Source of the DNA: Advenella kashmirensis WT001
Lineage (GTDB): Bacteria; Pseudomonadota; Gammaproteobacteria; Burkholderiales; Burkholderiaceae_B
Length of the DNA: 64,000 nt
Direction of reading: 5' to 3'
Assembly (NCBI RefSeq): GCF_000219915.2
Contig: NC_017964.1
Span: forward strand, 1,550,001 to 1,614,000
The position numbers and the translations under genes are program-made. Position 1 is the first letter of the stretch. Every line of letters starts with the position of its first letter. Under the pieces are notes generated by a model. That model saw nothing but the letters and a program-made list of their open reading frames with translations, did no database searches and was not told where the DNA came from. Below are positions 4,616 through 41,368 of this stretch, in pieces.

Positions 4616-5176
4616 ATGACTTTGCAATCGATCGTCCGCCTGTCTCAACCAGTGTGCCTCGTGCTATTGCTGGCCGGAGGTAGCACAATGGCCTACGCCG
4701 CAGGCAGCAGCTTTTCGCAGGACAGCCTACCCAGTTCCATCAAAGTGCCTGAGGGTAACAAGGTCGCCTGGGAAACAGTAGGAACTGGTGACATCACCTA
4801 TGAGTGCCGCGAGAAGGTCAACGCAGCGGGCCAGACTGAATGGGTGTTCGCCGGCCCCAAGGCGCAGCTTAAAGATCGCGCAGGCAAGCATGTCGGTAAT
4901 TATTACGGCCCCCCAGCCACCTGGGAGGCGATGGACGGTTCCAAAGTAACCGCAACCCAATTGGCGGTGGCGCCAGCCGGCGACGGCAATCTGCCTTATC
5001 AATTGGTGAAGGCTAATCCGGCGATGGGAGATGGTAATATGACTGGCGTAACGTATATCCAGCGCGTCGCGCTCAAGGGCGGAGTAGCACCAAAAACGGA
5101 GTGCAATACTGCTCGCAAGGGTGAGAAGGCCAAGGTAGCCTACCAGGCCGACTATATCTTCTGGAAATCGCAATAA
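4616..5176 (+). CDS. DUF3455 domain secreted protein
   Basis: This is a 186-residue exported protein of unknown biochemical role. It has a signal peptide (LVLLLAGGSTMAYAAG near residues 16-31), then the DUF3455 pattern: PSSIKVPEGNKVAWETVGTGDITYEC, WVFAGPKAQLKDRAGK, GPPATWEAMDGSKV, and a C-terminal pair of cysteines. In many proteobacteria this family is encoded just before an ECF sigma factor, as here (22 bases before it). It may be part of, or a target of, that stress response. The ribosome site TTTGGAG supports the start. Confidence 0.8.
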   Translation: MTLQSIVRLSQPVCLVLLLAGGSTMAYAAGSSFSQDSLPSSIKVPEGNKVAWETVGTGDITYECREKVNAAGQTEWVFAGPKAQLKDRAGKHVGNYYGPPATWEAMDGSKVTATQLAVAPAGDGNLPYQLVKANPAMGDGNMTGVTYIQRVALKGGVAPKTECNTARKGEKAKVAYQADYIFWKSQ

Positions 5177-5197: not shown

Positions 5198-5815
5198 ATG
5201 GTGGTTCCGCCCGTACAACAGCGTATTCAACCCGGGAATCGAGTGACTGTGACGCCTGCTTCTGACAGCTTTGATTACGAGGCGGCGCTGGCCGCCTGTG
5301 CCGCGGGTCAACGCGATGCCTTGCTACAAATTTATAACCACGAGGGTGGCCGCCTTCTGGGTGTGGTGTTACGGATTGTGCGCGACAAGGCCATGGCTGA
5401 AGATATAGTGCATGATACCTGCATCAAAATATGGACTGGTGCATCCGGCTTTGATCCTGCCAAAGGGACTGGCCGGGGCTGGATCTACAGTGTCGCTCGC
5501 CATCTGGCGCTCAATGCTGTGCGCGACACCAGTCGCAATATAGATCTGGATGACGATGCGGCCACAGCCCTGAATGACAAGGCCTCGCTGGAGGCCTGGA
5601 ATGACATGACCGACAGTTTCGCCTGGGAAACCAGTCAGGGCCGCATTACCTACTGCCTGGAACAACTTGAGCCGGTAAGACGCAACTGTATCCTGCATGC
5701 ATATGTGGATGGCTTTTCTCATCGGGAAATCGCCGAGCGCCTGAATGCGCCGCTGGGTACGATCAAGGCGTGGATCAAACGAAGCCTGGCTGCACTACGG
5801 GAGTGCTTGACATGA
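5198..5815 (+). CDS. ECF-family RNA polymerase sigma factor
   Basis: This 205-residue sigma factor directs RNA polymerase to stress promoters. Region 2 is seen as AEDIVHDTCIKIW and the following GRGWIYSVARHLALNAVRD. Region 4 is seen as LEQLEPVRRNCILHAYVDG followed by the helix-turn-helix FSHREIAERLNAPLGTIKAWIKRSL. This resembles the SigK/ECF19-like group that is paired with RskA-type anti-sigma factors. A GGAG site precedes the ATG. The stop codon overlaps the start of the anti-sigma gene (ATGA), which indicates translational coupling. The inducing signal cannot be read from the sequence. Confidence 0.9.
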   Translation: MVVPPVQQRIQPGNRVTVTPASDSFDYEAALAACAAGQRDALLQIYNHEGGRLLGVVLRIVRDKAMAEDIVHDTCIKIWTGASGFDPAKGTGRGWIYSVARHLALNAVRDTSRNIDLDDDAATALNDKASLEAWNDMTDSFAWETSQGRITYCLEQLEPVRRNCILHAYVDGFSHREIAERLNAPLGTIKAWIKRSLAALRECLT

Positions 5816-6548
5816 GTCCTTTATCTACGACCTCCCCGGCCGATGATCTATCCGAGCTGGCAGGAGAATATGTCTTGGGCACCTTGTCCGGCCGGCAGCG
5901 CCGCGAAGTGGAACAACGCCTGGCGCAGGAGCCTGCGCTACAGGCAGCGGTACAGGCATGGGAAGCCCGGCTTTTGCCATTGACAGCACTTGTGCCGGCG
6001 GTGCCGCCGTCGCCAAGGCTCTGGCAGCGCGTTGTGCGCAGCTGGATGCATTGGAAAGACCGGCCACTGCTATGCCTCCAAGCGACACCCGGCCTGCATG
6101 CAATTCGTTGTGGCGCTCGCTGGCATTCTGGCGAGGTCTGACAGTCGTGGGCTTTACGGCTGCGGCGTTGGCGATGGTGGTGTTGCCAGGTCAGTTTCAG
6201 CCGCCGCAGACCCGATTCATGGTGGTGCTGGTCGCACCTGAAGATAAATCGCCGGGCTGGGTCGTGCAGGCTCGTTCCGATAAGCGGGTGGAGCTGATTC
6301 CGCTGGGCATGCTGCAAGTGCCTGCCGACAAGTCCTTGCAGTTCTGGACCAAAGCCGATGACTGGAAGGCGCCGGTGTCGTTGGGAATTGTGCAGCCAGG
6401 AGAGCGGGTCAGCGTGCCACTCAATAACCTGCCTGGCATGCAGAAAAACCAACTATTCGAGCTTACGCTGGAGCCGCGCGCGGGGTCACCGACAGGGCGT
6501 CCAACCGGGCCGATCCAATTTATCGGGCGAGCGGTGCAGGTGTACTGA
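5812..6548 (+). CDS. RskA-like membrane anti-sigma factor (frameshifted)
   Basis: This is the predicted negative regulator of the sigma factor, anchored in the inner membrane. The N-terminal anti-sigma segment reads DLSELAGEYVLGTLSGRQRREVEQRL. A transmembrane helix follows (LTVVGFTAAALAMVVLPG), then the periplasmic RskA domain (APEDKSPGWVVQ, KSLQFWTKAD, LFELTLEPRAGSPTGRPTGP). The two halves lie in different frames. One G seems to be missing after base 6036; restoring it gives LWQRVVAQLDALERPA across the break. The start overlaps the sigma stop codon. If the shift is real, the protein would lose its membrane anchor and periplasmic sensor domain. A base-call error is more likely. Confidence 0.85.
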
Positions 6549-6613: not shown

Positions 6614-6625
6614 ATGTTATAACAT
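6614..6625. promoter_or_regulatory. Perfect palindrome ATGTTATAACAT, Zur-box-like
   Basis: This 12-bp perfect palindrome lies 78 bases upstream of the likely TonB-receptor start. Its GTTATAAC core resembles known binding sites of Zur, the zinc-responsive Fur-family repressor of proteobacteria. No second copy was found nearby. If it is a Zur site, the downstream receptor-chelatase operon would be expressed under zinc shortage. The assignment is by resemblance only. Confidence 0.5.
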
Positions 6626-6702
6626 ATCATCATTTTGCAAATGCGATGACGACTTGCGAGGCTGTATGTGAGTCAGCAAACGAATCGCAAACCGGATATG
6701 GT

Positions 6703-8699
6703 ATGAGTAAAAGAAGTAGAGTGGTGTCGGGCCTGCTTGTGGTGGCGGTCGGTAGTCTTGGAACGCAGGCTCAAACCCAGCCTTTGGAAGAAGGGCGACA
6801 AAGGACGGGGCAATCAGCCGCAACGCAACAGGATGGTTATGTGACAATGTTGCCAAGCGTCGTTGTCACGGCGACTGCCAGCGAACGCGCTTCCAGCGAT
6901 GTGCCTGCCAGTATTACGGTTGTGTCGGGCGAAGACCTCCGTCGGCGTCCCGTGAATGATCTGGCAGATGCGCTTAAAGGTACGGTCGGGGTCAGCCTGG
7001 AAGACGTCGGCCAGGGGCGCAGAGGTATTTCCATTCGCGGCATGAGTGCGGAGCATACCCTGATGCTGGTCGATGGACAACGTGTCAGCTCGTCTGCCTC
7101 GGCGATCGCGCACTCTGATATGGAACTGGGCTGGGTGCCTGCCGAGGCCATCGAACGTCTGGAAGTTGTACGCGGGCCAATGTCTTCGCTGTACGGTTCG
7201 GAAGCCCTTGGCGGCGTTGTGAACGTCATTACCCGTTCAGCGACTGACCGGTGGATCGGCTCGTTGAGCAGCTATGCATTGGCCACCGATCATGGCCTGG
7301 GCGGCGACCAATATAAAAACGGATTCTATATTGCCGGCCCCCTTGTCGCAGGGCGCCTGGGTCTGACCGCCTGGGGCGAGTTCAGGCAGCGTCACATGTT
7401 ACATGATACCGCTAATACGGCATTGAGCGCCCTGGACCGACAGCGGGCCACGACAGGCCACCTAGGATTAAGTTGGACACCGGACGCGCGCCAGCGTATC
7501 GACCTTTCTGTTGATGCGGTCAACGAGACCCAGACTGGTGTGTACGGTGGGGCGCGTGGCATTCCCTATCGTTCCGAGAATGAAATTCAGCGTCGCCGTT
7601 ATGCTTTATCTCACACAGGGGAGTGGGACTGGGGGAGCACCCGGGCCAGGTTGTATCGCAGCACACTTGACCGGCAGATATGGCGTAGCGACGGCGGTCA
7701 GGCCAGTGGTCCCAACCGTTTTGTCGATACTGTCTTTGATACTCAAGCAAGTTTTCCGCTCAATTCCATTCATAGGCTGACCATAGGCGGTCAGTTCAGG
7801 CGGGAAAGCCTGGAAGATCCCAATGTGAATCGCGTCGGCAAAAAAGCGCAAAATCATTATGCGCTTTTCATGCAGGACGAGATGGCGCTTGGCGAGCGCT
7901 GAGAACTGGTGCTGGGTAGTCGTTTTGACCGACATGAGCAGTTCGGGTGGGAGATCAGCCTCGTGCGTATGTGCTTTTTCATCCTGTAGAAGGCTTGACG
8001 CTGAAGGCCGGGGTTGGCCGCGGATTCAAGGCACCAACGCTCAAGCAATTGTCTGCCGAATTCGAATCCTGGGCAGCGATGGGCGGGCGGGGTGTTATCC
8101 GGGGTAATCCCGATTTGCAACCGGAAACCAATCTTTCCTATGAAATGGGTGCGGCCTATGAGTCGGATACATGGTCGGCCGGTGCGACCTTTTTTCACAA
8201 CAAAGTACGCAACCTGATTGATACCGTCAGACAGCCCACCTGTTTTGCTCCCGGCCGCGTTTGTCTGGCGTACGAAAATGTTGCCAGGGTTCGCCTGCAG
8301 GGCGTCGAATTGACGGGAGGCACCGATCTTTCCGAGCGCTGGCGACTGGATGCCAACTATACCTACCTGGATGCTCGCGATCAGATCACAGGGGAACCGA
8401 TGCCAGATCGCTCCCGACATCGCGCCAACGCGACATTGGCCTGGAAACCGCTGGCGTCTATGTCTACCCGAATGCAGCTCGAGTATATCGGCGCGCAATT
8501 TCGTTCAGACAAACAAGGCAAACGTCCCGGGTATGCACTATTGCACTGGTATATGGATTACGCCGTGAATCGCAACCTCACAGTTCAGGTTGGTGTAGAG
8601 AACCTGACGGATAAGCGTCTGGCCAACGATGATATCAGCCTTTTCAGCCGGGCGGACGAGGGGCGGCGCTACTTTGTCGGCATGCGGGTGCAGTTCTGA
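6703..8699 (+). CDS. TonB-dependent outer-membrane receptor (frame-disrupted)
   Basis: This is a TonB-gated outer-membrane transporter of the siderophore/haem/cobalamin receptor group. From the ATG at 6703 it has a signal peptide (MSKRSRVVSGLLVVAVGS), then a TonB-box/plug region (VVVTATASERASSDVPASI, IRGMSAEHTLMLVDGQRV, VVRGPMSSLYGSEALGGVVNVI). The barrel ends in a terminal Phe (GMRVQF). Two lesions break it: an in-frame TGA at 7900-7902, where Trp would fit (GER-W-ELVLGSRFDRHEQFG), and one missing C near 7958-7961. Restoring the C gives EISPRAYVLFHP followed by GRGFKAPTLKQLS. The stop overlaps the start of the chelatase gene, so they form one transcript. The substrate is unknown; context suggests a metal or metal-tetrapyrrole. 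Confidence 0.85.
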
Positions 8700-11600
8700 T
8701 GCGATTGTCACGATTGATCCAGGGGATCTCCTGTTTTCTGCTTATTGGCCTGGCTGGCATGACGCCTGTCTTGGTGTCTGCCAGTCCTGTGGTGCAAGTG
8801 CTGCACAATAATTTTGTTTTAGCAGAAAAGTTTCGGCATATGCAGACTATCGCCAAACGACAAGGAGTGGACTTGCGGCATCTCAATGTTGAGACGACAT
8901 CGTCGCAGGCGTTAAGTGCAGCTGTTGCGGGTGCTGCGCTCACCGTACTGGATGTGCCCAGACCGGGTGACCGATCAATGGTCGAACAGCGGCTGGACCA
9001 AGCACGACAACAACAGGAGAGCCTTAGTGCTAGACGCTTGACCGTTGGCGGGGGACGGCCCGTCTGGCACGGCCTGGAGGTGCCGGTGGGCAGCAGACTG
9101 GCCGAGCTCTATGCCGCAGGCGGTGAGGCTAATTACGGACGTTTTTTTGCGCTAGTCAGCACGATTGATGAAGGGCTTGTGCCGTCCCCTGATCTGCTTG
9201 TGCCGCCTGAAAAACTGCCGGCCACAGGCTTTTATCACTCGCAAGCTGCGCGAGTGTTCGACAATGTACAGTCCTACCTGAATTGGTATGCATCTGCCGT
9301 TTCTCCCGCCAGGCCTGATTCCATTGGCCGGGTGGCGTTTTTGATATCCCGGCATACAGTGACGGATTTTGTGACTGGTGAAGTGGATGAATTGATTCGT
9401 CGCAGTGAGGCCGCAGGCTTACTGCCTATCGTATTCTGGGCCGATGCAGATGATCCGCAAGGATTGCAGGGAGCGCTACACAACGCTACGGCAGATGTGC
9501 TGGTCAACCTGACGCATATGCGAGGCGGTGCTCAGCGCACCCGCGACTTTAAAGCGTTGAATGTTCCGGTAATCCAGACGCTACGTTTTCGCGAAGGGCA
9601 AGCACGCGACTGGCCCGCTGCTCCTAGCGGTGTTAATGCCCGTACTGCCGCTGTTTTCCTTGCCGGACCTGAAGGATGGGGTGTCAGTGACCCGCTGGTG
9701 CTGTCTGCCGCCACAGAAGGGATAGACGAGCTCCTGCCGCAACAAGCGCAAGCATTGATTGATAAGCTGCAAAGCCTGGTTGGCTTGCGACATACCCGTG
9801 CTGCGGATAAGCGGCTCGCCTTGATGTTCTGGAATTACCCGGCGGGTGAGAAAAACCTGGGCGCATCCAATCTGAATCTGCCGCGCAGTATTGTTTCTAT
9901 TCAGGCCGCATTGGCGGGGCAAAGTTATGATGTGGGCGAGCCCGTGAGCGAAAAAGTGGTTATCGAGAAAGGTCAGCGCATGCTGGGTGCGCTGTACGGT
10001 AGCGTATCGCTGGACGAACTACTGGCAGAAGATCTGGCAGCACTGTATCCGCTGTCGGCTTATGAAAGCTGGCTGGCAGGTCTGCCGGATGAGCAGCAGA
10101 AACAATTACGTCATCATGGCTCGCCTGACGAGCACCGCGCGATACGAGAGATTAACGGTCAACGTTATTTCGTTATTCCCCGGTGGCAGATCGGACATTT
10201 GCTGGTAATGCCGCAGATGCCGCGCCATGCCGACGCGGCTAAGCACTATCATGACACCGCCAGTGTACCGGATCATCTTTATATGGCGGCCTATCTGTAT
10301 TTGCAGCAACAATACGCTGCCCATGCACTTATTCACCTGGGAACACATGGCACTCAGGAATGGCTTCCTGGCAAGGATCGCGGGCTGGCCGCTAGCGATT
10401 ATCCGTGGCTGGCAGTGGGTAGCATGCCGGTATTCTATCCCTACATTCAAGATAACGTTGGCGAAGCATCCAGGCCAAGCGGCGCGGACGGGCTGTGATT
10501 ATCAGTCACCAGACGCCTCCCTTTGCACCTGCCGGACTGTACGACCAGTTGCGTGATTTGCACCACCTGATTCATGAGTATCAGCAGCTTGACGAGGGAA
10601 TAGTCCGTAAGCAAGTGGCACTGCGTATTCGGGAGACGGCATTTGCTGCGAATCTGCACCGGGACCTGGGTTGGGGTGATCAACAGGCGGAAGATGATTT
10701 TTCAGGTTTTCTTCAAGCCGTACATAACCAGTTGCATGAACTGGCGCGTACGGCCACGCCTCTGGGATTGCATACCTTTGGGCAGCCTGCGAGCGACGAG
10801 CACCGGGCCAGCACCATCGTGCAGCAGCTTGGAGAGCCATTCTATGCAGCGCTGGGGCTCGATAGGGAAGAGCTGTTTGTCGAAGATCATAAGCAGTTGA
10901 AAGACAATCCTGCCTATCTCGCCTTACATCAACTACTGAAGCCATCCAGTAAAAGCGCACTGCCTGACCGTGTTGCCGGTTTTGCCGATCGTGCCAGGGC
11001 GAATGATCTGCGCTTACGTGACACCCAGGAAAATGAGGCGTTGCTTGCCGGACTGGCGGGTGGCTTCATTGCGCCGGACGCTGGTGGCGATCCGATACGC
11101 AATCCCGATGTAATGAGTGGTCGTAATTTATACGCCTTCGAGGCCGACAAGATTCCCACCAGAGCAGCGTATGACTCAGCTGCAATGGCTTACGAACAGC
11201 TTGTTCAGGCTTTTCGGTCCGAGCATGATGGCCAGTGGCCTCGCAAGCTTGCGTTTAGCCTATGGTCGTCGAAGGCGATTCGTCACTTGGGGATAACTGA
11301 GGCGCAAATCCTGCATGCGGTTGGCCTGCGTCCAGTCTGGGATGCAGGAGGGCGAATTACTGCGCTGGATATTATCCCGACCCGGGAACTGGGACGGCCG
11401 CGAACGGATGTTGTGATTCAGGTTACTGGTGTGTATCGTGACCAGTTCGATAGTTTCATGCGGCTGCTTGACGACGCTCTGGCCCGCCTGGCCACACTGG
11501 AAGAACCGGGTAATCCGATTGTGGCAAATAACCAGCGTATTGCCACGCTCTTGCGCCAACAGGGTATGCCATCAGACCAGGCGGTCGCCGCCGCCCGATA

Positions 11601-12633
11601 CCGTATTTTTGGCAACGCTCCCGGACAATATGGTACGGGTGTGCCCGATCTGGCCTTACGCTCTACCGAATGGAACGATGATGGCGAACTGGCTCAGCAT
11701 TTTCTTGCGAGCAGCAGGCACGCATACGGCAGGCAGCAATGGGGCGCCAGTCTATCAAAAACGAATCTGCTGGCGGAACAACTGCGCGGTACGCAAGCGG
11801 CGATTATGTCCCGGTCGTCGAATCTGCATGGTGTGCTGTCAACCGACCACCCATTTGAGTTCCTGGGAGGTTTGTCGGCGGCGGTACGACACCTTGATGG
11901 TCAGGCTCCGCAATTGCTGATCTCCGACTTGCGTGACGGTGAGGTAAGCACAACCGGGCTGGCGCGCTTTCTGGCCAATGAGCTGCGGGGACGTTATCTG
12001 AACCCGCAATGGATTGAGTCCATGCAGCAGGAAGGATATGCCGGCACGCTGCAAGTGCTCAATGTCACTAACAATTTGTTCGGCTGGCAGGCTATGGAAC
12101 CGGCGTCTGTGCGTGATGACCAATGGCAGGCGATGTTCGATACTTATGTGAACGACACACGAGAACTGGGCACACGCGAGTGGTTTGAGCGGCACAATCC
12201 TACGGCGCAGGCGCAGATACTCGAACGGATGGCCGAAGCCATGCGCAAGGGCTACTGGAATGCGTCCGAGCAAACGCAACGCGACCTGGTCCGGCGCTGG
12301 CAGCAACTGGCCAAACAGTTTGATGTGCACACCGGCGCCGAGGCGACGCGTCGCTATATCGCTGATATTGCCCAGGGTTTTGGCTTGGGCGCAGAAACGG
12401 CGCCCCAGATGGAGTCAGGACCCGCCCTAGACCAAACGGCGGATAATCCGGGAGCGACAGAGCAGGAGATACAAACCGTAAATGGGCAGATCCTGGAGCG
12501 CGTGGAGGCTCCCGCCGAATCTTCGCCGGAGACGCTACTGGTTTTGCTTTTGCTGCTATGTGTCGCGGTGACCGGCGGAGCGCGGCAGTGGTGGGATGGC
12601 CGTCACATCACACATCGCGCAGATTCGATCTGA
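8699..12633 (+). CDS. CobN/HmuS-type chelatase, exported and membrane-anchored (frameshifted)
   Basis: This protein of about 1,310 residues belongs to the CobN/Mg-chelatase large-subunit family. Recognisable segments include HLGTHGTQEWLPGKD, SDYPWLAVGSMPVFYPYI, LFGNAPGQYGTGV-like FGNAPGQYGTGVPDLALRS, and the SRSSNLHGVLSTDHPFEFLGG region. Unlike biosynthetic CobN it starts with a signal peptide (LIQGISCFLLIGLAGMTPVLVSA) and ends with a transmembrane helix (LLVLLLLLCVAVTGGA). It should therefore act in the periplasm, tethered to the inner membrane, as proposed for HmuS-type dechelatases. One base is missing after 10467: adding a C gives VGEAIQAKRRGRAVIISHQ across the break. It follows the receptor with overlapping codons and precedes an ExbB-like gene. 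Whether it removes metal from a tetrapyrrole or handles another metal complex is not known. Confidence 0.85.
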
Positions 12634-12679
12634 ATCCATTTTTATTTTTTAATTGATTTCTATAACCCGAGACAACCTG

Positions 12680-13189
12680 ATGGACTTTTTTGCCGATATC
12701 GAACATTTGCTATACGCAGTCTCCCGCATTTTTCTTATGCCGGTACTGTTTCTCATCGTCTTGTCTTTGCTGTATGCGGTGGGAATGCTAGGGGCTTTTT
12801 TGGTTGAAGGCTGGCAACGACGTCGGCAGGGCGGCGCCGACAGGCTAGTGAAACAGACCAGAGATTACTTACGGCGACAGACAATATCTTCTGGTGATCT
12901 GGAACTGTATATTCTGAAACAGCTGGAATGGCTGCGGGTCGTGTCGCGCACCGCCCCGATGCTGGGTCTTATCGCTACCATGATTCCGATGGGGCCAGCC
13001 TTACTGGCGCTGGGCAATGGTGATGCGACGGAAGTAGGTAAAAACATGGTGGCGGCATTTTCGGCTGTTATTCTCGCGTTACTGGCTGCCAGTCTTTGTT
13101 TTTTTATCCTTACCATACGTCGTCGTTGGCTACTGCAGGATTTGCATCGGGCTGAACGTACCCTGTTATTGCAAGAGGAGTCGGCGTAA
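12680..13189 (+). CDS. MotA/TolQ/ExbB-type proton-channel protein
   Basis: This is an inner-membrane protein of the ExbB/TolQ/MotA family, which uses the proton gradient to energise partner proteins. From the ATG at 12680 it has 169 residues with three hydrophobic segments (IFLMPVLFLIVLSLLYAVGMLGAF; LGLIATMIPMGPALLALG; FSAVILALLAASLCFFIL). The family signature APMLGLIATMIPMGPALLAL is clear. It overlaps the next gene by one base and follows the chelatase after 46 bases. In Hmu-type loci the equivalent gene is thought to supply energy to the receptor or chelatase. Without a classical ExbD or TonB here, the coupling partner is probably the DUF2149 protein. Confidence 0.85.
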   Translation: MDFFADIEHLLYAVSRIFLMPVLFLIVLSLLYAVGMLGAFLVEGWQRRRQGGADRLVKQTRDYLRRQTISSGDLELYILKQLEWLRVVSRTAPMLGLIATMIPMGPALLALGNGDATEVGKNMVAAFSAVILALLAASLCFFILTIRRRWLLQDLHRAERTLLLQEESA

Positions 13190-13515
13190 TGCGTTTCCTT
13201 GAAGACGATGACACCGACCCCATGTTGTCGGTCGTCAATCTCATTGACCTGTTTCTCGTTATTATCGGGCTGCTGATGATTGTGATCGCGCAGAATCCGC
13301 TAGGTCCGTTAGCCCGGGAGAACGTGGTGGTGGTAGAGAGCCCGGGCCAGGCCGACATGCGCATCACGGTCAAGGAGGGCAAAGAACTGACGCGCTACGA
13401 ATCCAGTGGCAAGGTTGGTGAAGGACAGGGGGCACGCGCGGGCATAACGTACCGTCTGGATGATGGCAGGATGATATACGTCCCTGAAAACAAGGTCAAA
13501 GAAATAAATCAGTAG
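13189..13515 (+). CDS. DUF2149 protein, ExbD-like small membrane partner
   Basis: This 108-residue protein has one N-terminal membrane helix (LIDLFLVIIGLLMIVIAQNPL). It begins with the acidic stretch RFLEDDDTDPMLSVVNL, which is typical of DUF2149. The periplasmic tail ends in YRLDDGRMIYVPENK. Topology and position match ExbD/TolR: a single helix, and a gene directly after an ExbB-like gene (TAATG overlap). In Bacteroidetes hmu operons a DUF2149 gene occupies the same place. It probably forms the stator complex with the preceding protein. Function is inferred from context. Confidence 0.8.
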   Translation: MRFLEDDDTDPMLSVVNLIDLFLVIIGLLMIVIAQNPLGPLARENVVVVESPGQADMRITVKEGKELTRYESSGKVGEGQGARAGITYRLDDGRMIYVPENKVKEINQ

Positions 13516-15268: not shown

Positions 15269-16917
15269 ATGAACCCCACAGCCTTGTTACTGGCTACTTT
15301 TATTTTGTCCATTGTCGGACTTTTTGCTTTTATATGGTCCCTGAGAAAGGGGCTGTTTGAAGCGGAGTCCAGTGGTGCGCGTACTATTTTTTCGACCGGA
15401 GAAATCGGACATCCTGAAGAGCCATCAGTAGGGCCTGCTCAACAGAGCGCCCTGGATGAAGTATCGCGGACCAATCTGGACGCCGACGAAACCAAAACCT
15501 CCCCAACTGAGTTGGCTGCCCGCGAGGCGGCCGACCGATCCAGTGCCTTGCCCGCCTTTGTGCTCATTGGCTGTTCGGTTGTGTGGCTGATTGTGGCTTC
15601 ATTCGCAGGCCTTTTGGCTTCGCTCAAATTGCACTGGCCAGATCTGATGACAGAGCACGCCTGGCTCAGTTTCGGTCGCTTGCGCACCATGCATTTGAAT
15701 GGCGTTGCGTACGGCTGGGCACCCCTGGGGCTGCTGGGACTTGCTATCTGGATGCTGCCACGACTTTTGCGAACGCAATTGTTGGGCGGACGGTTGGTCA
15801 TTTTTGGTGCGCTGTTGTGGAATGCCGCACTGATCGCAGGGATGGGTGGCCTGGCTATCGGCATTAACGCAGGCATGGAATGGCTGGAGATCCCCTGGCA
15901 GATCGGTGTGCTGTTCGCCATTGGCGGCATGCTAGTTGGCTTGCCGATGGCCCTGATGCTGACGCGCCGTAAAGTAAATCATCTGTACGTGTCTGTCTGG
16001 TATATGGGAGCCGCACTGTTCTGGTTTCCAACGCTTTATATCGTGGCCAAAGTCCCTGGTGTGCATTTCGGGGTGGAGCAGGCCACGATGAACTGGTGGT
16101 ATGGACATAATGTATTGGGGCTGTTCTATACACCGTTGTCGCTGGCCGCTGTTTACTATTTCCTGCCCAAGGTGATTGGCCGGCCAGTGCGCTCTTACAA
16201 CTTGTCGTTGCTGGGCTTCTGGACACTGGCCTTTTTCTATGGACAGGTGGGGGCGCATCACTTGATTGGCGGCCCGATCCTGAGTGGCTGATCACACTAT
16301 CTATCGTGCAAAGTGTGATGATGATCATCCCGGTTCTGGCGTTTTCAATCAATCAACACATGACGCTGAAAGGGCACTTTAGCGCCTTGCGCCATTCCCC
16401 GGTGCTGCGCTTTATTGTCTTTGGCGCCGTGATGTATACGCTGGCATCGGTACAGGGTTCTTTCCAGGCATTGCGTACGGTCAACGCCACGACGCATTTC
16501 ACCCACTTTACGGTGGCGCATGCACACATAGGCATGTACGGCTTTGTGTCGATGGTGATTTTCGGTGGGGTTTATTTTGTCATGCCGCGCATTCTGAATA
16601 CGGCCTGGCCCAAACCCAGTCTGATCGCCTGGCATTTCTGGCTCGTGGTAGCGGGGTTCGCAGTCTATATGATTACCTTGAGCATCGGCGGGGTATTGCA
16701 GGGCCTGGCTTTGCTGGATCCTGCCCGTGAGTTCATGGAGTCGGTAGCAGTCACGATGCCATGGCTGCAGGGCAGGTCGATTGGCGGTGCGCTGATGACG
16801 CTGGGCCATCTGGTGTTTGCGCTACATGTCTTTCTGATTATCGTGCGTTCCGGCGCCTTTTCCCTGACCGAGCGTAAAACGCCCGCTGCTGCTGCGGCTA
16901 ACCCTTCACTGACATAA
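15269..16917 (+). CDS. cbb3-type haem-copper oxidase subunit I (CcoN-like) with CcoS-like N-terminus (frameshifted)
   Basis: This is the predicted catalytic subunit of a C-family terminal oxidase, about 550 residues. The histidine motifs of CcoN are visible: FGRLRTMHLNGVAYGW (low-spin haem), NWWYGHNVLGLF (CuB region), GAHHLIGGPIPEW, and THFTVAHAHIGMYGF (haem ligands). The first 50 residues form an extra helix and FIWSLRKGLFEAESSGAR, which resembles the small assembly protein CcoS. A hydrophilic linker follows, so the gene looks like a CcoS-CcoN fusion. One C is missing in the run at 16279-16280; restoring it reads GPIPEWLITLSIVQS and rejoins the C-terminal third. It is the first gene of a five-gene operon divergent from a MocR regulator. 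Confidence 0.85.
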
Positions 16918-16924
16918 ACGCGGT

Positions 16925-17568
16925 ATGGAAAACGAACTTAAACTACTTGTGGGTGCGATGGTGACGCTATCGCTGGCAACCTCAGCCTTGGTCGTCGTGC
17001 CCTTTCTACAACTGAAGGATGAGCCGGCACCTGCCGAGCTCAAGCCTTATACCAGCCAGGAATTGCGCGGACGCCAGCTGTATCGTGCGCACGCGTGTAT
17101 GGCCTGTCATACCCAGCAGCCGAGCACACTGGTGCAGGTATCGCAGATGCCAGCCGTGGCTGGGGGCGCGCATCGGTAGCGGGCGATTATCACTATGATG
17201 ATCCGCCGTTGCTGGGCACCATGCGTACCGGGCCTGATCTGTTTAATATCGGCGTGCGCCAGCCTAGCGTGGACTGGCATCTGGGTCATCTGTTCCAGCC
17301 GCGCGCCTATACGCCGGGCAGCAATATGCCTGCCTATCCGTTTATGTTCGAAGTCAGGAACGCCGATGATGTGGCCGACGGCGAGAAGGTCGTGCATCTT
17401 CCAGCAGGTACGGTTGAACCTGGCAAGGCCGTGGTTGCCAAGCCGGAAGCACTGGACCTGGTGGCGTATCTGATCAGCCTGAAACGCACCTACCCCGTTC
17501 TGTCTACGGAACAGGCGGACGTATTGTCGCAATCGGGCGCAGCTTCAGAAAAGGAACAAGTGCAATGA
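16925..17568 (+). CDS. CcoO-like membrane-anchored mono-haem cytochrome c (frameshifted)
   Basis: This is the predicted electron-entry subunit of the oxidase, about 214 residues. It has an N-terminal membrane anchor (LLVGAMVTLSLATSALVVVPFL), then YTSQELRGRQLYRAHACMACHTQQ with the single CMACH haem site. The C-terminal half shows GDYHYDDPPLLGTMRTGPDLFNIG and PGSNMPAYPF, which match CcoO and supply the methionine ligand. One G is missing near 17146; adding it gives VSQDASRGWGRASVAGD and rejoins the halves. It starts 7 bases after the ccoN-like gene and its last codons overlap the next gene (ATGA). Confidence 0.85.
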
Positions 17569-27280: not shown

Positions 27281-27954
27281 ACTGTTGTCTCCTTATGCCG
27301 GTGTTTTTTTGTCAGTATAGCTTTAACATTAATCAAGTGCACTCACTTATTTTGAGTCGTGACAGAGGTAATTTGAACAGGCAATTTGGGAAATACGCAG
27401 TGAGAAAGCCAATGCTGGCCACAGGCGTTTATGGGCATTTTGTAGCCTTGGCGTACAGATTATATCGGCAACTGCTGCGCGTAAAATTGACGATGCCGCC
27501 TGCTGCGGCATGCGCTTCAAATATTAAGTTATTGATTATTAAAAATTAGATCGCTGGCTTTTGTCCGGGCTGTTTATCCGCCGTATCAGAAAAATGAACA
27601 GAAATCGCCAATCGCCAAAATTAGCCAAGGCTTTCCCGAATAGGGCCTTATAATGTTGAATTAATTGAATATTATTTAGAAAAACGTTCTGCCAGATAGC
27701 CATTCAGGCTGCTTGTCGGGTGTCTAAGCCCAATAGGCCTCAATAGGCCTGATAGGTAACCTCAATTCGAAGATTTGTTGCGTTTTTCACATCGCATGGC
27801 AATTGTTCGAGCCCCCAAAAGTAACATCTCAGTCATTTTTTACGCGATGCCACGGTATACGTTTTACCTGTGCGCGCCGTTCATTCCTGTCGTTGTACCC
27901 TGTACACAAAGAAATCCAGACAGGCTTTTTTTAGCTCCATTTTTAGAATTCCCC
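27281..27954. other. Intergenic region upstream of the OsmC-YcaO gene
   Basis: No supported gene is seen in these 674 bases. The frame of the downstream gene stays open for 60 codons before the chosen ATG, but that peptide looks unlike OsmC proteins and has no ribosome site. Other features are a 10-bp tandem duplication CAATAGGCCT at 27731-27750 and an AT-rich imperfect palindrome around 27651-27675. The promoters of the Bug gene (leftward) and the OsmC-YcaO gene (rightward) should lie here. Confidence 0.45.
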
Positions 27955-30158
27955 ATGGAAATTAAAGTCAACTTTCTCGACAAGCTACGCCTTGAAGCCA
28001 AATTCGATGATTTTACGGTTGTGGCCGATCAGCCGATCCGTTATAAGGGCGATGGATCGGCGCCTGGTCCTTTCGATTATTTTCTGGCTTCCTCGGCCTT
28101 GTGTGCAGCGTATTTTGTGAAGTTGTACTGCGTCACCCGTAATATTCCTACGGAAAATATCCGCCTGTCTCAAAATAATATTGTGGATCCGGAGAATCGC
28201 TACAAGCAGATCTTCAAGATTCAGGTCGAGCTGCCCGCTGACATCGAGGAGGCAGACCGCCGGGGAATTCTACGCTCTATCGAGCGCTGTACGGTAAAAA
28301 AAGTCGTGCAAACCGGGCCGGAGTTTGTCATTGAAGAGGTAGAGAACCTGGATGCTGATGCCCAGTCTTTGCTGACATTGAATCCCGCTTCCGACGCCAG
28401 TACCTATATAACGGGCAAAGATTTGCCGCTGGAGCAAACCATCGCCAATATGTCGGGCATTCTGGCTAACCTGGGTATTAAGATTGAAATTGCCTCATGG
28501 CGCAATATTGTTCCCAATGTCTGGTCGCTGCATATTCGCGATGCGCACTCGCCCATGTGTTTTACCAATGGCAAGGGAGCGACCAAGGAAAGCGCGCTGG
28601 CATCGGCGTTGGGAGAGTATATCGAGCGCCTTAATTGCAATCACTTCTACGCCGGTTCATTTTGGGGCGAAGACATCGCCAACGCATCGTTTGTACATTA
28701 CCCGGACGAACGCTGGTTCCAGCCGGGGCCCAAGGATGCGCTGCCCGCAGACATTCTGGATGCATACAGCCGGCAAATCTATAACCCGGATGGCGAGCTG
28801 CGTGGCTCGCATCTGTATGATACCAATTCCGGCAATATGTCGCGAGGTATCTGTTCGCTGCCGTTTGTACGGCAATCAGACGGCCATGTGGTGTATTTTC
28901 CGTCAAACCTGGTCGAAAACCTGTATGTCAGCAATGGCATGAGCGCCGGCAACACGCTGGTAGAAGCGCAGGTACAGTGCTTGTCCGAAATTTTTGAACG
29001 GGCGGTAAAACGCGAAATTCTGGAAGGCGAAATTGCATTGCCCGATGTGCCGCAGGAAGTGCTGGCGAAATACCCAGGCATTCTGGCCGGGATTCAAGCA
29101 TTGGAAGAGCAGGGCTTTCCGGTGCTGGTCAAGGACGCATCGCTGGGCGGGACTTACCCGGTAATGTGCGTGACCTTGATGAACCCACGCACAGGCGGCG
29201 TCTTTGCCTCATTCGGCGCGCATCCAAGTTTTGAGGTGGCGCTGGAGCGCAGCCTTACGGAATTGCTGCAGGGACGCAGTATCGAGGGGCTGAACGATTT
29301 GCCTAAGCCTACCTTTGTCAGTGAAGTGGTGACCGAAGCAAATAATTTTGTCGAACACTTCATTGATTCCAGCGGAGTGGTGTCGTGGCGCTTTTTCAGC
29401 GCCAAGGCGGATTTTGAGTTTGTGGAATGGGATTTTTCCGGCCAGGGTAAAGACGCCAATGCTCAGGAAGCAGCGACCTTGTTCGGTATTCTAGAGGACT
29501 TGGGCAAAGAGGCGTACATGGCAGTCTATGACCAACTGGCGCTATCGCCTGCCGAATTCTGGTGCCCGGCTATTCGGAAGTGTACCCGGTAGACGATGTG
29601 ACCTGGGACAACACCAATAAGGCACTTTTGTTCCGCACAGATATTTTGAACCTGCATCGCCTGGACAATGCCGCGTTGGTCGCGCTGCTTGAGCGGCTTG
29701 AGAACAACGAACTGGATGACTACGCCGATATTGCTACGTTGATCGGTATCGAGTTTGATGAGAATACCGACTGGGGGCAGCTCACTGTTCTGGAGTTAAA
29801 GCTATTGATAAACCTGGCCTTGCAGCAATTTGAGGCAGCGCAGGAGCTGACCGGCGCTTTCCTGCAGTACAACGACAACACGGTTGAGCGCGGTCTGTTT
29901 TATCAGGCATTGAATGTGGTGCTGGAAGTGCAGCTTGATGATGACCTGGAGCTGGACGACTATGCCGTTAACTTTCGCAAGATGTTCGGCAATGCCCGGA
30001 TGGATGCGGTGATGGGGTCAGTGAACGGCAGCGTACGCTTCTTCGGGCTCACGCCTACCAGTATGAAACTGGAGGGGCTTGACAGGCATCACCGCTTGAT
30101 CGACAGTTATAGGAAATTGCATAAGGCGCGGGGCAAAGCGGCGGTGACTGTTGATTAG
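27955..30158 (+). CDS. OsmC-YcaO fusion protein (YcaO-type accessory factor, frameshifted)
   Basis: This protein has about 734 residues and two domains. Residues 1-150 form an OsmC/Ohr-like domain with the paired cysteines SSALCAAYF (Cys50) and IERCTVKK (Cys112). From about residue 158 it follows E. coli YcaO closely: ASWRNIVPNVWSLHIRD, CFTNGKGATKESALASALGE (ATP site), MSAGNTLVEAQVQ, HFIDSSGVVSW, and a TPR-like C-terminus. YcaO is linked to methylthiolation of ribosomal protein S12 and uses ATP to activate amide backbones. One base is missing near 29545; restoring it reads ACRILVPGYSEVYPVDD. The ATG at 27955 gives the normal OsmC start. The sulfur-reactive OsmC domain may serve the same reaction, which is inference. 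Confidence 0.88.
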
Positions 30159-37814: not shown

Positions 37815-40800
37815 ATGTACTTTGACTATCGTCTGTGGCTGATGACCGCCGGATTGCGCACCCGCATGATCGGCGGGGTAATGCTTGGTCTGTTGGCCTT
37901 GCTGGCGGGGATCGCCCGCTACGTTTTCCTGGGTCAGTTATTGGCCCGCGTATTCGATCAGCAACCCTGGCAGCAATGGTTGACTCCGGCGTTGTGTGCT
38001 GTGGCCATGGTGCTGCTGCGAGCCTGGCTGGATCATCTGCGAACCGTCGAGGCTAACCGGTCCGCGTCCCGGATTCAGCTTACTTTACGTGCGGGCTTAT
38101 ATGATCGTATTGTCGATCTGGGGCCAGCCTGGCTTGGTAGCCAGCGTACCGGGGGCGTCATGTTGAGTGTCATCGATGGTGTCGAGCAATTGCAGACCTT
38201 TTTTGGTCGCTATTTACCCCAGGTCGCCATTTCGCTTATCGCACCCATTGCTATCTTTGCAGTTATTGCATTCTGGGACGTGCCAACGGCCTCGGTACTG
38301 CTTATCGCAGCGCTTTTCTCGTTGCTGGCGCCCGCTGCCGTGCATGCGCTGGACCGGCGTGCCAGCCGTGAGCGCGCACAGGCACTTAGAGAGTTCGGAG
38401 AGGATTTTCTGGATGCCATGCAGGGTTTACCTACGCTCAAGGCGTTTGGCCAGGGCAAGAACTTCGGCCTGCGATTGGCGCAGCGGGCACGCCATCTGTC
38501 AGACAAAACATTCTGGGTCCTGTCTGTTAGCGTACTCACGCGGGGCATGAGCGATCTGGGTGTTGCCATGGGAGCTGCGATAGCGATCGCGCTGGGCGCA
38601 ACCCGTGTGGTGCAAGGCGAGATGAGTCTGGAAGCGCTTCTTATTGTATTGATGGCGGGGACTGAAATTTTTCGTCCGCTGCGCGACTTGCGCTCCGTGC
38701 TGCACCAGGGGATGCTTGGGCAGTCGGCAGCATCCAGCATTCACGCGCTTAATGGCGCGCGTCGAGTCGATCCTGCATCGGGGCGGGCATTGTCGCCCAC
38801 GGATATAGCGCCGCGTATTCGATTTGAAGATGTGACATTTGCGTATCAGCCCGAGAGGACCGCGCATAGTGGCCTGAACTTTGACATAGCTGCCGGAGAG
38901 CGCATCGGCGTGGTCGGCCCTAGCGGCGCCGGTAAATCCACTATTGTTCGCTTGCTCTTGCGCGAAGTGACACCGCAGCGTGGCCATATATACGTGGGAG
39001 ATTATGACATCCGTGATCTTTCCGAAGAGGCATTGCTATCGCGTATTGCATTGGTTAGCCAGGACATTACCTTATTCCATGGCACCCTGGACGAAAATAT
39101 ACGATTGGGCCGCCCCGATGCGACGCCTGAACAGGTGCGCGCGGCTGCCCGGTCAGCCAATATAGATGCATTCATTATGACTTTGCCCGACGGTTACCAG
39201 ACGCAGGTAGGGGATCGCGGCCTCCAATTGTCTGGCGGACAGCGGCAGCGTGTCGGTATCGCCCGTGCGTTGTTGAGAGACGCGCCAATTCTTATCCTGG
39301 ACGAGGCGCTGTCATCGGTCGACTCGCAGAACGAGTTTCTGATCCAGGAGGCGCTGGACCGGCTTATGGAAGGAAGAACCACGCTGATCCTGGCGCACCG
39401 CCTGGCCAGTGTAATTAATGCCGATAGAATCCTGGTGCTGGAACAAGGGCGAATTGTCGAGTCTGGATCTCACAAGGCATTGATGCAAGAAGGAGGGTTG
39501 TACTATCGATTGATGCGGGAACAGAGCAGTGTCAATCAGATCTCGGAAGAGGCCGATACGCAGGCTGACCCTATAGTGGTACCAAACCGCGCCAACGGTC
39601 CCAAACCAAGATCACTGGAGCAAGATGCCGCCCGGGTGGGGTGGCCAGACGTACTGGCCACGCTGCTGTCGGTGGTCAAACCATGGCGTCTGACTTTGAT
39701 TGCGACCATCTTGCTGGGCGTGGCGCGGGTTGCGGCTTTTATCGGGGTGGGCGCATTAAGTGCGCTTGTGGTTGCCGCTTTGCGTAATGGTCAGCCAACA
39801 CAGATGCTGATCACCGCACTGCTGGTTGTTGCCCCCCTGGCCGCGTTATTTCACTGGCTGGAGTCCTGGCTTGCGCATGCGATGGCTTATAAGTTGCTGG
39901 CCAACATGCGGATCGATTTGTATGACAAGCTTGAACAGCTTGCGCCAGCATATCTCCTGGAGCGCCGCTCCGGTGATTTGGTATCACTGGCCACACAGGA
40001 CGTGGAAATGATTGAATACTTCTATGCCCATACCATTGCGCCAGCTATCGTATCGATACTGGTTCCTGCCTCTGTACTGGGGTTCCTGGCTGTCTATAGT
40101 TGGCCTGTCGCGTTGGCTTTGCTGCCTTTTCTTGCTTATGCGTTGTTGTCACCGGTGCGCAACCGACGACGGATTGATGCGCTGGGAGAACAGGCCCGTC
40201 AATCCCTTGGTCAAATGAGTGCGCACTTGACCGACACCATCCAGGGCATGGCCGATCTGACCGCGTTTCAGGCGACAGCACGCCGACGCAAGCAATTTTT
40301 GGATATTGCCCAATCCTATAGCGCTCAAAGGCAAGCCATCTTGGATGATTTATCAGCGCAAAGCGCCTGGTTCGAGATGGCGATGGGGCTGGGCGGATTG
40401 GCGGTTGCCGTGACTGGGGCCTTGCTGGCTAATGCCGGTGCGCTTGATCCGACCATGGTGCCCTTGCTGGTGCTCGTGGCAGTCGCAACATTTTTGCCAG
40501 TATCTGAAATCTCCCAGGTTAGTCGCCAGTTGGCTGACACCGTGGCTGCCAGCCGGCGGTTGCATGTGGTGCATCAAGAGCCGGTGCCTGTCAGAAGCGG
40601 GCCGGGTCGGCTCGCGCTCACACCACAAGGGCTGTCGATCAACTTCGATAAGGTAAGTTTCAGATATACACCGCAAGCGCGCCTGACGCTCGATGCGCTC
40701 TCATTTTCCCTTTCGCCCGGTACGACCACTGCATTGGTAGGCGCGTCAGCGCCGGCAAAAGCACGGTTGCCAACCTGCTGCTGCGGTTTTGGGATGTCAG

Positions 40801-41368
40801 TGAGGGAGCGATACGGATCGGTGACGCTGATATTCGCCAGCTCGAATTGGACAACCTCAGAGATCATGTCGCTCTGGTCACGCAGGACACCTATTTATTT
40901 AACGATACCCTGGCGGCAAACATTCGGCTTGCTCGTCCTGACGCAAGTGAAGCCGAAGTACGCGAAGCGCTGGCCTCTGCTGCGTTATCAACGTTCGTTG
41001 CCTCGCTGCCGCAAGGTCTGAATACGCTCGTGGGTGAGCGTGGCACGCAATTGTCAGGCGGACAAAGACAACGTATAGCCATTGCACGTGCCTTTTTGAA
41101 GAACGCGCCCATTTTGATACTGGATGAGGCGACGTCGCATTTGGATAGTCTGAGTGAAATGCAGGTGCGGGATGCGCTTACGCTGCTGATGCATGAGCGC
41201 ACGACCCTGATTATTGCGCACCGGTTGGCGACCATTCGAGACGCTGACCAGATCCTGGTACTGGATGACGGAAAACTGGTTGAGCAGGGCACGCATGATG
41301 CATTGCTTACTCAATATGGACCTTATGCACGTCTGATTCAACATCAGGAGCAGGGTATCGCTGGTTGA
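37815..41368 (+). CDS. Fused double ABC exporter (CydDC-like architecture, frameshifted)
   Basis: This single chain of about 1,184 residues contains two complete type IV ABC exporter halves (membrane domain plus ATPase, twice). The first half has VVGPSGAGKST, LSGGQRQRVGIARAL and ILILDEALSS. The second has a Walker A broken by one missing G near 40749 (LVGASGAGKSTVANLLLRF when restored), then LSGGQRQRIAIARAF and ILILDEATSHLDS. A charged linker lies around residues 580-620. The layout recalls fused heterodimeric exporters, including CydDC-type thiol exporters. The substrate is unknown. It begins after a 288-base gap with an AAAGGAGAGG ribosome site and is followed by an unknown gene 73 bases on. 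Confidence 0.87.

Follow-up and report, generated by a model that had tools for sequence, protein, structure and literature searches.

The operon PA1922-PA1925 of Pseudomonas aeruginosa has been known since 2015 to be controlled by Zur, and its function is unsettled. Its CobN-like member has been read either as a cobalt enzyme or as part of a system for free zinc. PA1921-PA1925 were up 15- to 147-fold in a znuA mutant and a Zur site is present; cobalt also rose in the mutant, and the authors tied the rise to the PA1922-25 operon (PMC4542158). Zur was shown to bind the PA1922 promoter in an electrophoretic mobility shift assay (PMC8531726), PA1925 was described as a DUF2149 protein (PMC9431628), and proteomics agreed with induction by zinc starvation, not all values being significant, with a speculation on cobalt by its authors (preprint PMC11761036). 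According to a review, non-chelated zinc may be what PA1922-25 imports (PMC10393844). Two further papers that were searched (PMC11481552, PMC7689651) do not name the operon. Here we describe a cassette of this type in a 64,000-nucleotide stretch of the Advenella kashmirensis WT001 genome (hereafter the window), in which a CirA-like TonB-dependent receptor, a CobN-like chelatase, an ExbB-like channel subunit and a DUF2149 protein are encoded at 6646-13515 behind a putative Zur box.

The other described system close to the cassette is the haem operon hmuYRSTUV of Bacteroidota, which encodes HmuY, a receptor, a CobN-like protein, a hypothetical protein, an ExbB-like protein and a DUF2149 protein (PMC10434189). 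Its CobN-like member HmuS is a haem de-chelatase whose structure was solved recently; the HmuS of Porphyromonas has been distinguished from CobN and ChlH and assigned to the periplasm (PMC13227078). A third CobN-related type, predicted to act in metalloporphyrin salvage, was named BtuS by Rodionov et al. 2003 (cited in PMC6460266); the cassette chelatase shares with it the condition of a CobN-like protein outside cobalamin synthesis, as BtuS is described there. In the literature searched, no paper mentions PA1923 together with HmuS and we found no link between PA1922-25 and HmuS; other papers may make one.

The cassette is of the PA1922-PA1925 type, which is already on record as Zur-controlled in another genus. 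The two were likened by published description: the order of a CirA-like receptor, a CobN-like protein, an ExbB/ExbD-type protein and a DUF2149 protein agrees, and so does Zur control (PMC4542158, PMC8531726, PMC9431628, PMC11761036). They differ in that no counterpart of PA1921, a methyltransferase, was noticed beside the cassette, and in that two genes of the cassette are frame-broken in the WT001 assembly. The present analysis adds to this that the zinc box is widely conserved, which HmuS residues are shared and which are changed, and a test of the CobN label. From these we propose, with a probability of about 0.6, that the cassette is a Zur-repressed system for outer-membrane import and periplasmic metal release. 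An earlier reading made from the letters of the window (hereafter the sequence-only reading) had pointed in this direction. Its gene set, its likeness to hmu, the membrane anchor of the chelatase and zinc control stood; an intact receptor, an intact chelatase and the absence of CobS and CobT did not.

The zinc box and the gene unit

The 12-base palindrome ATGTTATAACAT occurs once in the window, at 6614-6625 upstream of the receptor gene, where the sequence-only reading had noted a Zur-like palindrome. In the 4.42 Mb genome there are three exact sites, against 0.11 expected from base composition and none for a reversed-pattern control. One of the others lies 40 bases before zinT (PF09223, L044). 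A ZnuA/AztC gene (PF01297, L045) has the third at its 5' end, inside the open reading frame (ORF) as called from a TTG. Since the ZnuA match begins only at residue 63, this gene probably starts further in; on the other strand, an amino-acid carrier gene starts about 150 bases from the same box. A near match, ATGATATAACAT, stands some 105 bases upstream of a zur-like gene that has a COG0523/CobW gene behind it. The zur-like protein scored 115.7 bits on the NCBIfam Zur model and did not reach the cut-off of 167. A 16-base pattern allowing up to 3 mismatches gave 7 sites, fewer than the 17 of its reversed control. The reversed control was not split by mismatch number, and the four sites with 0-2 mismatches therefore rest on their neighbouring genes.

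For comparison, species genomes were scanned once with the second chelatase piece as query, which gave 32 loci. By name they belong to alpha-, beta- and gammaproteobacteria. Since they were picked by chelatase likeness, the frequency of incomplete cassettes elsewhere cannot be read from this set. Receptor, chelatase, ExbB and DUF2149 genes occur together in 29 of the 32 (phmmer). Two loci are cut by contig ends, one with the chelatase only (L018) and one without the receptor (L025); L027 has a diverged receptor, which was recognised by Pfam. The stretch from -600 to +60 around the called receptor start was scanned for the box in 30 relatives. The best match had 12 of 12 bases in 9 relatives, 11 in 12 and 10 in 5, and at most 8 in the remaining four (L008, L013, L029, L034). 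A match of at least 10 bases was thus found for 26 of 30 receptors, compared with 0.87% of 3000 random stretches from the same loci; the 26 are not independent, several being close kin. From a scan of 150 bases upstream, Zur control of PA1922 had been held to be seemingly unique to P. aeruginosa (review PMC10393844). In the two Stutzerimonas loci the distance from the near match to the called start is 523 and 438 bases, more than such a scan would reach. The palindrome at 6614-6625 thus appears to behave as a Zur box, and since it is shared exactly only with zinT and znuA in the genome and is kept by the relatives, zinc control of the cassette through Zur, as the sequence-only reading had suggested, seems highly probable.

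In four of the 32 loci (L009, L010, L011, L031) the cassette has a DksA-family gene close by whose product carries one or two cysteines (two recognised by Pfam, the others by a BLAST cluster); in P. aeruginosa, dksA2 belongs to the Zur targets (PMC8531726). No conserved fifth partner was seen in the flanks, where the largest neighbour cluster covered 8 loci and was represented by a generic ABC ATPase. DUF2149 proteins were found in 28 of 151 genomes from the family and in 17 of 398 from the phylum, the genome of the window being counted in each. Homologues of the chelatase numbered 4495, of which the best 120 were listed; true CobN and ChlH may be among the rest. One locus, called A. kashmirensis W13003 (L007), has 74% identity to WT001 in the second chelatase piece, compared with 90% for A. 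incenata, and its species name therefore looks doubtful.

The four genes lie head to tail on the + strand, as members of one unit with overlapping or nearly overlapping codons would. The receptor and chelatase frames share one base, the ExbB and DUF2149 frames likewise, and 46 bases separate the chelatase from the ATG of the ExbB gene at 12680. The receptor had been taken for a single ORF. Its first piece (6646-7902), which holds the plug domain (PF07715, 96.8 bits; positions 32-371 of 663 of the CirA model), closes with a stop codon, and the remainder (7947-8699), which holds the beta-barrel (PF00593, 158.1 bits; positions 395-663 of 663), is read in another frame. Judged from the relatives, the receptor more likely starts near 6700 than at 6646; a stretch at 6856-6876 in the first piece resembles a TonB box. 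The chelatase, read earlier as one product of 8699-12633, is likewise made up of two pieces in different frames, an N-terminal half at 8699-10498 (PF02514 positions 3-474) and a second piece at 10495-12633 (positions 483-1089).

The ExbB/TolQ/MotA-family channel subunit resembles HmuU (PF01618, 31.2 bits with a cut-off of 22.9, scanned from TTG 12653). Comparison with the relative L004 indicates that it probably starts at ATG 12680, giving 12680-13189, and the protein is conserved across 32 sequences. The HmuV-like DUF2149 protein (13189-13515; PF09919, 92.2 bits) has one membrane helix, the sole confident part of its structure model (pLDDT 54.2). In this helix Asp20 is invariant in all 18 aligned proteins. 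An invariant aspartate in a membrane helix is reminiscent of ExbD, and together with the adjoining conserved ExbB-like partner it suggests that the two proteins are probably a proton-driven motor pair. Riboswitch control was considered and rejected, as Rfam gave no match in the window.

The chelatase compared with HmuS and CobN

The order and families of the genes agree with the hmuR-S-U-V part of the Bacteroidota system, as the sequence-only reading had noticed. The residues His254, His506, His538, Glu577, Asp1208, His1209 and Glu1212 of HmuS are present in 30 of 30 cassette proteins. In HmuS, His254 belongs to the head/neck haem site, and His538, Glu577, Asp1208, His1209 and Glu1212 lie in the central cleft. 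In the window the corresponding codons, located through the alignment of relatives, are at 9515-9517 (His254), 10250-10252 (His506), 10346-10348 (His538) and 10463-10465 (Glu577) in the first piece and at 11845-11847 (Asp1208), 11848-11850 (His1209) and 11857-11859 (Glu1212) in the second. His254, His1209 and Glu1212 occur in none of five CobN controls, which were other chelatases from the relatives' genomes, and the Asp/Gln pair of CobN is replaced by the His/Glu pair of HmuS in 30 of 30 cassette proteins. In P0003, the intact orthologue from A. incenata, the facing histidines of HmuS (His538 and His1209) are H550 and H1051.

Other parts of HmuS are changed or missing. In the propionate pocket, Gln1198 is Ser in 29 proteins and Thr in one, Trp1202 is His in 27 and Asn in 3, and Ser1067 is Thr in all 30; Ser1199 is kept in 30 and Ser1014 in 21. 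The residues of the Na2 site are changed. Beside His254, the position of Gly255 is Met in 21 and Leu in 9 of 30. The methionine-rich insertion of about 120 residues is missing, with 49 residues between the aligned stretches compared with 217 in HmuS. Across the first 900 residues of an alignment of 19 proteins no methionine reaches 90% conservation, which speaks against an equivalent of Met79 from the head/neck haem site of HmuS, the Met79 stretch itself lying outside the alignments. The cassette thus shares with the hmu system the families and order of hmuR-S-U-V, an anchored class I chelatase and the residues His254, His538, His1209 and Glu1212 (PMC12583661, PMC13227078). It differs in having neither hmuY nor hmuT, in its zinc-type box, and in the changed pocket, Na2 site and insertion.

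The overall likeness was examined by sequence and by structure. By sequence, HmuS (9d26) was the best PDB match of the second piece (300.7 bits). P0003 scored 437.3 bits against HmuS, 373.5 against ChlH and 351.3 against CobN among solved structures, and a profile of 19 cassette chelatases gave 602.1, 509.1 and 508.0 bits, respectively. The first piece alone was undecided (100.5 bits against CobN, 92.8 against ChlH and 90.7 against HmuS). By structure, Foldseek placed HmuS first for the model of the second piece (E 7.0e-32, compared with 8.6e-27 for ChlH and 1.1e-26 for CobN), whereas VIA-align placed CobN and ChlH first. Since the two methods rank differently, the structural comparison of the second piece is undecided between HmuS and CobN.

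The relation to cobaltochelatase was tested with family models. On the CobN equivalog model TIGR02257, P0003, the one orthologue tested, scored 521.8 bits, under the cut-off of 822.05, whereas the five CobN controls all passed (1502.6 to 1738.5 bits). On NF004644, an NCBIfam model named "cobaltochelatase subunit CobN", P0003 scored 1658.2 bits, over the cut-off of 1248, which none of the five controls reached. This model also accepts two anchored proteins of a second clade (L066, L071). As anchored members of both clades pass it and the five TIGR02257 proteins fail it, its CobN name is in doubt. The passing of P0003 would explain why databases name such proteins CobN, and the product name is probably misleading for the cassette proteins and for the anchored proteins of the second clade. 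This second clade of CobN-like proteins (L066, L070 and L071, with L077-L079) adjoins TonB receptors in L078 and L079 and an ExbB-like gene in L079. Its members lack His254 and mostly His1209, and it is perhaps a cassette for another substrate.

The sequence-only reading had given the chelatase a signal peptide and a C-terminal membrane anchor, and stretches that resemble both are present. The start looks like a signal peptide by eye, with a hydrophobic stretch at 8732-8782, and the anchor lies at about 12532-12583. The best 18-residue hydropathy in the last 60 residues was at least 1.51 in 31 of 31 cassette proteins and at most 0.38 in five of five CobN controls, and the structure model of the second piece has a helix at residues 679-710. 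N-terminal hydropathy does not separate the cassette proteins, since two of the five CobN controls reach 2.00 near residue 28. In our judgement the chelatase is very probably periplasmic.

CobS and CobT had been taken to be absent. A CobS-like gene (490.1 bits, cut-off 558.55) and a CobT-like gene (287.5 bits, cut-off 759.05) do exist in the genome, and their presence is literally what the sequence-only reading had named as a refutation. Against a partnership, both lie more than 2 Mb from the cassette and below their curated cut-offs; neither adjoins it. The pair stands at L046:6705-9430, and the only PF02514 protein of the genome is the anchored chelatase of the cassette, so that there is no second CobN. 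For CobJ/CbiH the best score in the genome was 47.6 bits, under the cut-off of 246.35, and among 20 scanned neighbour proteins of the relatives (279 listed) none matched CobS or CobT. It is therefore extremely improbable that the protein is a cytoplasmic cobaltochelatase partnered with this pair. A cobaltochelatase working with CobST was rejected on the TIGR02257 cut-off, the anchor and the active-site pair. The cassette chelatase shares the PF02514 domain and fold with CobN and differs from it in these three respects and in having no CobST partner beside it. To judge by its sequence, it is not an ordinary cobaltochelatase.

Proposed mechanism and alternatives

Starting from the gene set, the chelatase family, the anchor, the conserved residues and the box with its shared sites, all seen in the sequence, we propose the following. 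Upon zinc shortage, Zur would come off its box (6614-6625), and all four genes would be read as one unit. The TonB receptor would carry a metal chelate across the outer membrane into the periplasm. Once exported, the CobN-like protein would stay anchored in the inner membrane through its C-terminal helix; there the chelate would be bound between the two facing histidines equivalent to His538 and His1209 of HmuS and would give up its metal without ATP, as haem does in HmuS. Power from the ExbB-like and DUF2149 proteins would go to the receptor or the chelatase, or to both of them. The released ion would most probably be zinc, and it may then pass to ZinT and ZnuA, which are encoded next to copies of the same box. 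The chelate carried, the direction of the chemistry, the metal released and the role of the motor pair are what we infer. Release of metal from an imported chelate seems to us more likely than not, and a zinc tetrapyrrole is a possible but doubtful identity for this chelate.

The cassette might instead import free zinc, as the review cited above suspects for PA1922-25, with the CobN-like protein acting only as a periplasmic zinc chaperone or an inner-membrane gate and with no chelate as substrate. The changes in the pocket that holds the porphyrin propionates in HmuS would fit this. A chaperone of 1300 residues would be costly, however, and the class I chelatase fold (in the second half) and the HmuS histidines have been retained; we regard a free-zinc importer as unlikely. 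The replacement of Trp1202 by His, as in CobN, is one of several facts that would also fit the import of a cobalt complex or a corrinoid, from which the chelatase would recover cobalt as a stand-in for zinc in starvation. Cobalt rises in the znuA mutant, as mentioned above, later authors have suggested a cobalt-linked role (PMC8531726, PMC11761036), and in L022, L023 and L027 the cassette has cobalamin riboswitches next to it. These riboswitches are, however, read from the strand opposite the cassette, with a separate receptor following them in L022 and L023, and the window has none. The same boxes stand beside zinT, znuA and zur, and the CobN Asp/Gln pair has given way to the HmuS pair throughout. 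A cobalt role is thus quite unlikely in our estimation.

The HmuR-S-U-V families and the HmuS histidines are what would be expected of a haem-iron system like hmu, in which the zinc box would be incidental. The zinc-type box in 26 of 30 relatives argues against this, the box scans having covered the zinc-type pattern only, and so do the zinc response of the P. aeruginosa operon (PMC4542158, PMC11761036), the lack of hmuY and hmuT, and the loss of the pocket tryptophan and of the methionine-rich insertion. We consider a haem-iron system very improbable. The likeness to HmuS at the residue level, taken with zinc boxes kept by relatives from alpha-, beta- and gammaproteobacterial genera, leads to the idea that starving cells free zinc from imported chelates by periplasmic de-chelation. 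If this is true, the NCBI model would misname a sizeable family. As a tentative and less likely extension, Proteobacteria might mine zinc from imported zinc tetrapyrroles, such as zinc porphyrins shed by other microbes, by means of a periplasmic HmuS-like de-chelatase driven by ExbB and DUF2149. Metalloporphyrins would then serve as zinc sources, and many database "cobaltochelatase CobN" proteins would be zinc-scavenging de-chelatases.

Frame breaks in the WT001 assembly and neighbouring genes

The match of the receptor to A. incenata (L003) switches frame at about 7959, after the stop at 7900-7902, and that of the chelatase at about 10465-10468. In the relatives the chelatase is a single ORF in 30 of 32 loci, with 1280 to 1435 residues as called, some starts being over-long, and when L003 is compared with L004 and with L032, each of the receptor, chelatase, ExbB and DUF2149 genes aligns over a single stretch. 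Of 18 ORFs taken from L003, ten match the window. One of these belongs to a scattered paralogue family; the other nine, in collinear order at 4.6 to 21.5 kb, include three that are broken.

The breaks could be real mutations of a decaying genome, in which case the cassette is dead in WT001, a matter separate from its function in relatives. The authors of the genome counted 578 frame-broken genes and held the large majority to be real pseudogenes, and about 11 kb of sequence holds four broken genes, those for the anti-sigma factor, the receptor, the chelatase and CcoN. The pieces of receptor and chelatase, however, still share 87-92% identity with the A. incenata proteins. Moreover, rpoB, found once, is in two pieces (L038 and L039; C1:4312569-4316643 of the genome), though rpoC is whole. 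Because rpoB is essential, its break is best taken as an error, and since rpoB too is split in this assembly, sequencing error is the likelier cause of the breaks in the cassette. The reads were from Ion PGM at 37x plus SOLiD mate pairs (PMC3669393). An independent survey of 2,307 genomes, where it deals with the absence of RpoB and RpoC, reported 925 frameshifts for WT001; it suspected sequence errors in many such cases and likened the genome to an error-prone one (PMC6403173). We therefore think it likely that the cassette breaks are sequencing errors, and leave a small but appreciable chance to real decay.

An ECF sigma factor gene and an RskA-type anti-sigma gene occupy 5198-6548, with a DUF3455 gene adjoining at 4616-5176. 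The anti-sigma gene, directly upstream of the cassette, switches frame at 6042 in its match to A. incenata (L003). Downstream, at 15269-17568, cbb3 oxidase subunit I (ccoN) is split into 15269-16291 and 16306-16917, and a piece resembling subunit II follows at 17095-17568. At 27775-30158 a YcaO-domain protein stops at profile position 526 of 723 and a further ORF overlaps its end, which is perhaps another frame break. At 37815-41021, an ORF of 1068 residues matches both the CydD and the CydC models, in two stretches, and its product is perhaps a fused CydDC-like exporter.

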